From positions 2,480,001 to 2,544,000 of the forward strand of contig NZ_CP019914.1 of NCBI RefSeq assembly GCF_002214805.1: a stretch of 64,000 nucleotides of DNA, given 5' to 3'. This DNA comes from Brachyspira hampsonii (GTDB lineage: Bacteria > Spirochaetota > Brachyspiria > Brachyspirales > Brachyspiraceae). Under the pieces are notes generated by a model, which did no database searches, had not been told where the DNA came from, and saw nothing but the letters and a program-made list of their open reading frames with translations. Made by a program: the position numbers and the translations under genes. Shown piece after piece: positions 52,282 through 52,461 of this stretch (position 1 is its first letter; the number at the start of each line of letters is the position of its first letter).

Positions 52282-52461
52282 ATGCAACAGCAACAGCAAC
52301 AGCAACAGCAACAGCAACAGCAACAGCAACAGCAACAGCAACAGCAACAGCAACAGCAACAGCAACAGCAACAGCAACAGCAACAGCAACAGCAACAGCA
52401 ACAGCAACAGCAACAGCAACAGCAACAGCAACAGCATACCTATTTATTAATAGTATCATAA
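52282..52461 (+). CDS. Short ORF encoding 50 consecutive glutamines
   Basis: ATG followed by 50 Gln codons (alternating CAA and CAG), then HTYLLIVS and stop: 59 residues. The ATG has GGTGG about 12 bases upstream and lies 35 bases after a good promoter. The frame is trivial because a pure CAACAG tract has no stop, so translation is plausible but not certain. If made, a 50-Gln peptide would be unusual in bacteria. It may instead be a leader whose length affects expression of the lipoprotein gene 200 bases downstream. Confidence 0.35.
   Translation: MQQQQQQQQQQQQQQQQQQQQQQQQQQQQQQQQQQQQQQQQQQQQQQQQQQHTYLLIVS
52285..52434 (+). repeat. (CAACAG)25 perfect hexanucleotide tract
   Basis: Twenty-five uninterrupted CAACAG units, 150 bases, with no variant. 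A tract this pure implies recent expansion and likely length variation between cells or strains. Unit changes keep the reading frame, so it would vary peptide length or spacing, not switch a frame. Confidence 0.95.

Follow-up and report, generated by a model that had tools for sequence, protein, structure and literature searches.

The pil1 and pil3 loci of S. gallolyticus carry GCAGA units within a leader peptide and undergo leader-peptide phase variation with attenuation, in which out-of-frame changes in unit number allow the translating ribosome to get as far as a terminator and melt it (Danne et al. 2014; PMC3894217). At hmw1A and hmw2A of H. influenzae, heptamer arrays have been described within the promoters, where they act on transcription (PMC2651432). 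In-gene contingency loci of Haemophilus are represented by lic1A, lex2A, mod and similar genes (PMC6479036, PMC2651432). Tandem repeats of Brachyspira have been used as typing markers, and no repeat-based phase variation in Brachyspira was found in the searchable open literature.

The window analysed here is a 64,000-nucleotide stretch of the Brachyspira hampsonii chromosome (genome G000, chromosome positions 2480001-2544000), and the coordinates of the locus are given in window positions. An ATG at 52282-52284 is followed immediately by a hexamer array within a short leader ORF, behind a predicted promoter and ahead of a lipoprotein gene. We put at roughly 0.6 the probability that this tract represents the repeat element of a leader-ORF phase switch whose ancestral unit is a heptamer, the window copy being locked in frame by its period of six. 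The relatives named below are all Brachyspira, among them G007 (B. innocens), G005 (B. hampsonii 30446) and G015 (Brachyspira sp. G79). The features of the locus are as follows.

50653..52059, minus strand: divergent conserved gene with no Pfam match, the anchor of the locus in relatives (ORF and relatives)
52220..52247, plus strand: predicted leader promoter TTGACA-16-TAATAT, with TTGACA at 52220-52225 and TAATAT at 52242-52247 (consensus scan, 10/12)
52267..52272, plus strand: SD-like GGTGGA, 9 nt 5' of the leader ATG (read directly; same place in relatives)
52282..52461, plus strand: leader ORF M-Q50-HTYLLIVS, 59 aa (ORF translation)
52285..52434, plus strand: array (CAACAG)25, pure (TRF and comparison with relatives)
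52431..52625, plus strand: post-array open frame of 64 codons, with its stop 36 nt before the lipoprotein ATG (frame analysis; equivalents in G007 and G009)
52435..52439, plus strand: CATAC, adjoining the array on its 3' side and left from the ancestral heptamer (comparison with G004, G007 and G009)
52589..52626, plus strand: two overlapping AT-rich hairpins (52589-52613, dG about -7; 52604-52626, dG about -2.4) 5' of the lipoprotein SD (folding; not terminator-like)
52648..52653, plus strand: lipoprotein SD AAGGAG (read directly)
52662..53525, plus strand: lipoprotein gene, 287 aa, presumed to be the regulated gene (signal peptide, lipobox AVSC)

TRF called the array at 52284-52436 (period 6, 25.5 copies, 100% pure). 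Together with the translation, this bears out the earlier note, made from the window sequence alone, which had described a perfect (CAACAG)25 tract for 50 glutamines that lies directly behind an ATG and reads into a stop 200 nt before the lipoprotein gene; the leader stop is indeed 200 nt 5' of the lipoprotein ATG (52662). Four or more consecutive CAACAG units occur at a single site in the 3,189,639-bp single-contig chromosome of the window genome, and the array is therefore not a chance product. In the 2.46 Mb scanned for arrays (2.396 Mb fetched plus the window, 77% of the chromosome), no other period-6 array reached 4 copies and 24 bp. Long pure arrays with a period of 4, 5 or 7 numbered about 20 in the same scan, which also revealed three period-12 arrays and two short runs. 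The description of the array as rare thus applies to its period, which is the unusual trait, and not to the presence of a long pure array as such. A pure 12-bp repeat (AGGGTATAGAAA) was also observed at 58275-58342, within a 303-aa ORF (57534-58445), and two more arrays of period 12, similar in composition, were found at other sites of the genome.

The promoter reported ahead of the tract was recovered by the consensus scan, with 37 nt (38 in the earlier note) from the predicted -10 box to the first CAACAG unit; the array lies downstream of the box. Promoter-like boxes are frequent in AT-rich DNA here (7 observed versus 8.8 by chance), and a second, weaker site (9/12) lies 3' of the array at 52476. 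The -35 and -10 boxes of the leader are identical in five of seven species (G000, G004, G007, G009 and G015), those of G017 differ from the window boxes by one change, and G005 has lost 13 nt of the promoter spacer together with the leader ATG. At the position of the leader SD, relatives carry GGGGGA, GGAGA or GGTGGA. In a scan of the window leader, nothing resembling an intrinsic terminator was found between the leader and the lipoprotein gene, and an attenuator of that kind was rejected for this locus.

The lipoprotein, which has homologues in 10 of 26 genomes of the genus, starts 227 nt 3' of the array, and the leader ORF ends before this point in all frames; the window array does not lie inside the frame of the regulated protein, as it would in an in-gene phase-variable ORF. 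The gene has its own SD, so that independent synthesis is possible, and we count this against the switch reading. The 3' part of the leader belongs to an element (TTATTAAAGAT...ATCTTTAATTGTTATAAATAAAAAATATT, 52589-52661) dispersed in the genus ahead of two families of surface genes, encoding lipoproteins and MKHLKKIIF-type proteins; ahead of other genes of both families it also occurs with no array. This element may be an expression-site mark or a recombination point.

Comparison of the same site in other Brachyspira pointed to a heptamer ancestry. The 224 bases 5' of the tract are matched in G004 (94%), B. innocens (93%) and G005 (88%), and also in G015 and G009. At the position of the window array G004 carries (CATACAG)15, B. 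innocens at least 13 CATACAG units (its assembly breaks within the array), G009 six such units and G005 two; G015 carries five copies of CATATAG, and G017 a single unit behind the same promoter, SD and ATG. Unit number across species is therefore 1, 2, 5, 6, at least 13, 15 and 25. CAACAG is CATACAG less one T and, judged by this alignment of units, (CAACAG)25 is derived from (CATACAG)n with one T lost per unit. A recent expansion, as the earlier note had suggested, holds for the hexamer, which itself arose from an older heptamer array. The gene behind the leader is exchangeable: G000, G004, G007 and G015 have the lipoprotein, and in G005 and G009 an outer-membrane-type gene (MKHLKKIIFTAVL...) replaces it behind the same leader.

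The peptide encoded by the leader is not maintained. An SD, an ATG and a 59-codon open frame are what a functional poly-glutamine micropeptide would need, and such a peptide had been among the functions proposed for the tract. Relatives, however, encode (HTAYSIQ)n, one unit or an in-array stop at the same place instead of Q50, and no excess of silent changes was found in the leader (7 silent and 6 replacement codons between G007 and G009; 4 and 20 between G007 and G000). We consider a micropeptide function highly improbable. Since the codon positions of the leader lack protein-like constraint, selection, if any, would act on openness and not on the peptide. The post-array frame was also considered as a remnant of a longer protein gene; this candidate was rejected, because the frame lacks protein-like constraint and is interrupted in both G004 and G005.

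The frames behind the array were then compared. In B. innocens, one post-array frame is open for 65 codons, with its stop 36 nt ahead of the next gene; in G009 the corresponding values are 69 codons and 23 nt. The remaining two frames in both genomes stop within about 20 nt. With one open frame of three, repeat number in these two relatives would decide whether a ribosome translating the leader reaches the next gene. Adding or removing one unit in silico in G009 shifted the distance between leader stop and gene among 23, 222 and 211 nt. For the window, with 24, 25 or 26 hexamers in silico, the leader stop was constant at 200 nt from the gene: a period of six is frame-neutral, so the leader ends at this distance from the lipoprotein at any copy number. 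The window leader ATG lies outside the 64-codon open frame, a relation that the array cannot change. Tested alone against upstream regions of real genes, the openness of the window leader is not significant (P 0.10 to 0.16). An assignment of G015 as ON from the frame at its array end was dropped, because the CATATAG unit contains stops.

Several copies of the leader are damaged. In G004 the frame is broken at codon 38, and in G015 stop codons lie within the CATATAG array; since the leaders of G004, G005 and G015 are all damaged, an intact switch is seen at exactly this site in only two relatives, and the window copy, too, may fairly be read as a product of decay. According to such a reading the tract would be a neutral relic, a decayed switch in which changes in hexamer length have no effect, and the lipoprotein would be expressed from its own signals or be silent. 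The inability of a period-6 array to switch frame is consistent with this, as are the broken lipoprotein genes of G015 and G025. However, the promoter, SD, ATG and lipoprotein gene are all intact in the window, and the 64-codon frame is still open despite a 1-nt deletion in an A-run that the window shares with G004 and G005. We regard a neutral relic as possible but rather unlikely.

The layout of the window locus recurs in the genome. In class tests for which arrays and gene starts were picked by the analyst, an ATG was found no more than 9 nt from the array end at 16 of 22 arrays examined (24% expected, P 2e-6), and 10 of the 22 had an ATG preceded by an SD at the array (2% expected, P 5e-12). 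At 11 of 15 loci the leader frame came as close as 40 nt or less to the gene, compared with 4.6 expected from real upstream regions with reliable starts (P 7e-5); with looser gene starts 5.4 were expected (P 9e-4). An initial comparison with shuffled DNA (Fisher 2e-9) overstated the enrichment, and real upstream regions gave values from 0.02 (loose starts) to 2e-5 (reliable starts). The complete layout, comprising an SD, an ATG, an array of 4-, 5- or 7-mers and a frame open toward the next start, was found at nine loci besides the window. Four more loci (CAATCAG, AACTCAG, AGCATAC and TTCAG) have the open frame with no array-adjacent ATG in the window genome; in the G017 copy of the AGCATAC locus this ATG is present.

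In one frame, the leader stop overlaps the ATG of the gene at the GTTATCC/TATC, AACAGTC, AAAC, AGCATAC and MBOAT loci, and it falls 9-50 nt short of the ATG at the ACAAC15, ACAAC39, TCAACAG and CATCAAG loci. Array units at leader loci are almost always stop-free; the AAACTCT array (529812) is the one leader array with stops on both strands in its unit, and it has neither an ATG nor a long open frame. The genes behind the arrays encode lipoproteins, outer-membrane-type proteins, an MBOAT acyltransferase, a GT29 (sialyltransferase-like) enzyme, a Cache-domain receptor, a cNMP-binding regulator, an MFS transporter and a TPR protein. Unit numbers differ among relatives at the MFS locus (28.7, 15, 16 and 7.4) and at the receptor locus (14 and 21.9). 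An intrinsic terminator is present at the ACAAC15 and ACAAC8 loci (11-12 bp stem, dG about -16 to -17, T-rich tail), and none was found at the other leader loci. ON frames that end at the gene start at loci without a terminator suggest translational coupling, re-initiation or protection from Rho.

Other arrays were observed in the same genome. An ATG with a (GACACAA)19.6 array behind it (chromosome positions 400486-400622) precedes a frame of 380 codons that resembles a cNMP-binding regulator; the ATG is in a different frame, and the locus is thus OFF as sequenced. Six pentamer arrays (ACAAC, CAGAC and related units) are clustered at chromosome positions 78149-90431 in a region of surface-polysaccharide-like genes. 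Four of the six are located at ORF 3' ends, where slippage would alter the stop of the upstream ORF.

The leader of the MBOAT acyltransferase gene could be followed across the genus. An ATG and a pentamer array are present in all 16 genomes with the locus (15 besides the window genome), with units that include ACCGC, ATCGC, GCACC, AGCAC, GCACA, ACAGC, AACCG and CAATA, and the leaders range from 46 to 231 nt with identity as low as 17%. At least one frame is fully open to the gene in 14 of the 15 with a clear start (shuffles predict 4.1), and the remaining leader is open to within 2 nt of the gene; as the species are related, this openness is supportive but falls short of a clean test. The leader ATG is in the open frame in some species and out of frame in others, as expected of a switch.

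It could also be that the hexamer array acts as an analogue tuner, its unit number setting leader length, ribosome load or the distance between promoter and gene, and hence the level of lipoprotein (cf. Haemophilus hmw1A). The array does lie between promoter and gene, its 25 units lengthening this interval by 150 nt, and the size of the tract differs widely among species. On the other hand, an effect of spacing needs neither a start codon ahead of the array, nor mostly stop-free units, nor a frame open to the gene, all of which are seen in the class, and the array is 3' of the predicted -10 box. We therefore consider tuning improbable.

These data led us to a model for the leader switch. The anatomy, the hexamer/heptamer homology, the frame arithmetic and the recurrence at other loci are observed; that the leader is translated, and that this affects expression, is inferred. 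The promoter would give an mRNA whose first SD-preceded ATG leads straight into the tandem array, and slippage of a heptamer array would cause ribosomes to exit the array in an altered frame. In the ON state, one of the three frames would carry ribosomes through about 65 codons to 23-36 nt from the start of the next gene; in the OFF state, the other two frames would end within about 20 nt, so that some 200 nt of leader would go untranslated. The ON state may increase expression via translational coupling or re-initiation, and may also keep Rho, which is encoded in the window genome, or hairpins off the naked leader RNA. In the window, where the unit is one base shorter, the frame would be fixed and short. 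Because the window leader stops 200 nt early at any unit number, expression of the lipoprotein is expected to be constantly low or off, and only a rare single-base indel would release the switch; the tract may be free to drift in length. Most likely the window copy is a switch frozen OFF, or a relic. Of the three options in the earlier note, a leader controlling the lipoprotein is the best supported, by the conserved layout and its recurrence, although the frame-neutrality of period 6 had been overlooked.

The window tract itself, probably a derived and frozen copy, is of moderate interest, and the leader-switch class is the main finding. We slightly favour the view that Brachyspira has a genus-wide set of leader-ORF switches, with about a dozen loci per genome, which would work by coupling or anti-polarity and not by an intrinsic terminator, and of which the window hexamer would be a frozen member. 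In this view, the number of 4-, 5- or 7-base units behind a leader ATG would gate ribosome access to an unaltered downstream gene. If so, surface and regulatory genes of gut spirochaetes would switch randomly at many loci, and typing, serology and expression studies would have to allow for on/off states. The same leader with frame-shifting and frame-neutral units also offers a natural experiment, in which effects of frame and spacing are separable.

Within the window itself, an Eco57I-type restriction-modification gene (29222-32299) contains a pure (AGCAC)14 array at 29229-29298, right behind ATGGATA. This gene is a classical in-gene phase-variable locus and, being in frame, is ON as sequenced. 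Just 5' of it, at 28920-29160, are motifs (GTACATT...CCGTGCGGAATGCCC) that also occur in two near-identical 70-bp repeats at 39589-39720. With in-gene contingency loci the Brachyspira leaders share the principle that slippage shifts the frame behind a start codon; unlike them, they have the repeat in a separate short ORF, and the regulated protein itself is not frameshifted. The likeness to hmw1A and hmw2A is that a pure array of heptamers stands some 100 bp ahead of a surface-protein gene, but the Brachyspira array is inside a leader ORF led by a start codon.

In the literature searched, the leader design was otherwise found in one streptococcus only. The pil1/pil3 and Brachyspira leaders are alike in that a promoter, an SD and an ATG lead into the pure tandem array of a short leader ORF, that copy number modulo 3 sets the end of the leader while unit number varies, and that the downstream surface gene has its own start. 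They differ in that the Brachyspira leaders occur in a spirochaete, at many loci per genome and with differing units of 4, 5 and 7 bp, and in that they mostly lack an intrinsic terminator, the ON frame ending at the gene start. The window copy is set further apart from pil1/pil3 by its frame-neutral period of 6, whereas B. innocens and G009 have the frame-shifting unit of period 7.
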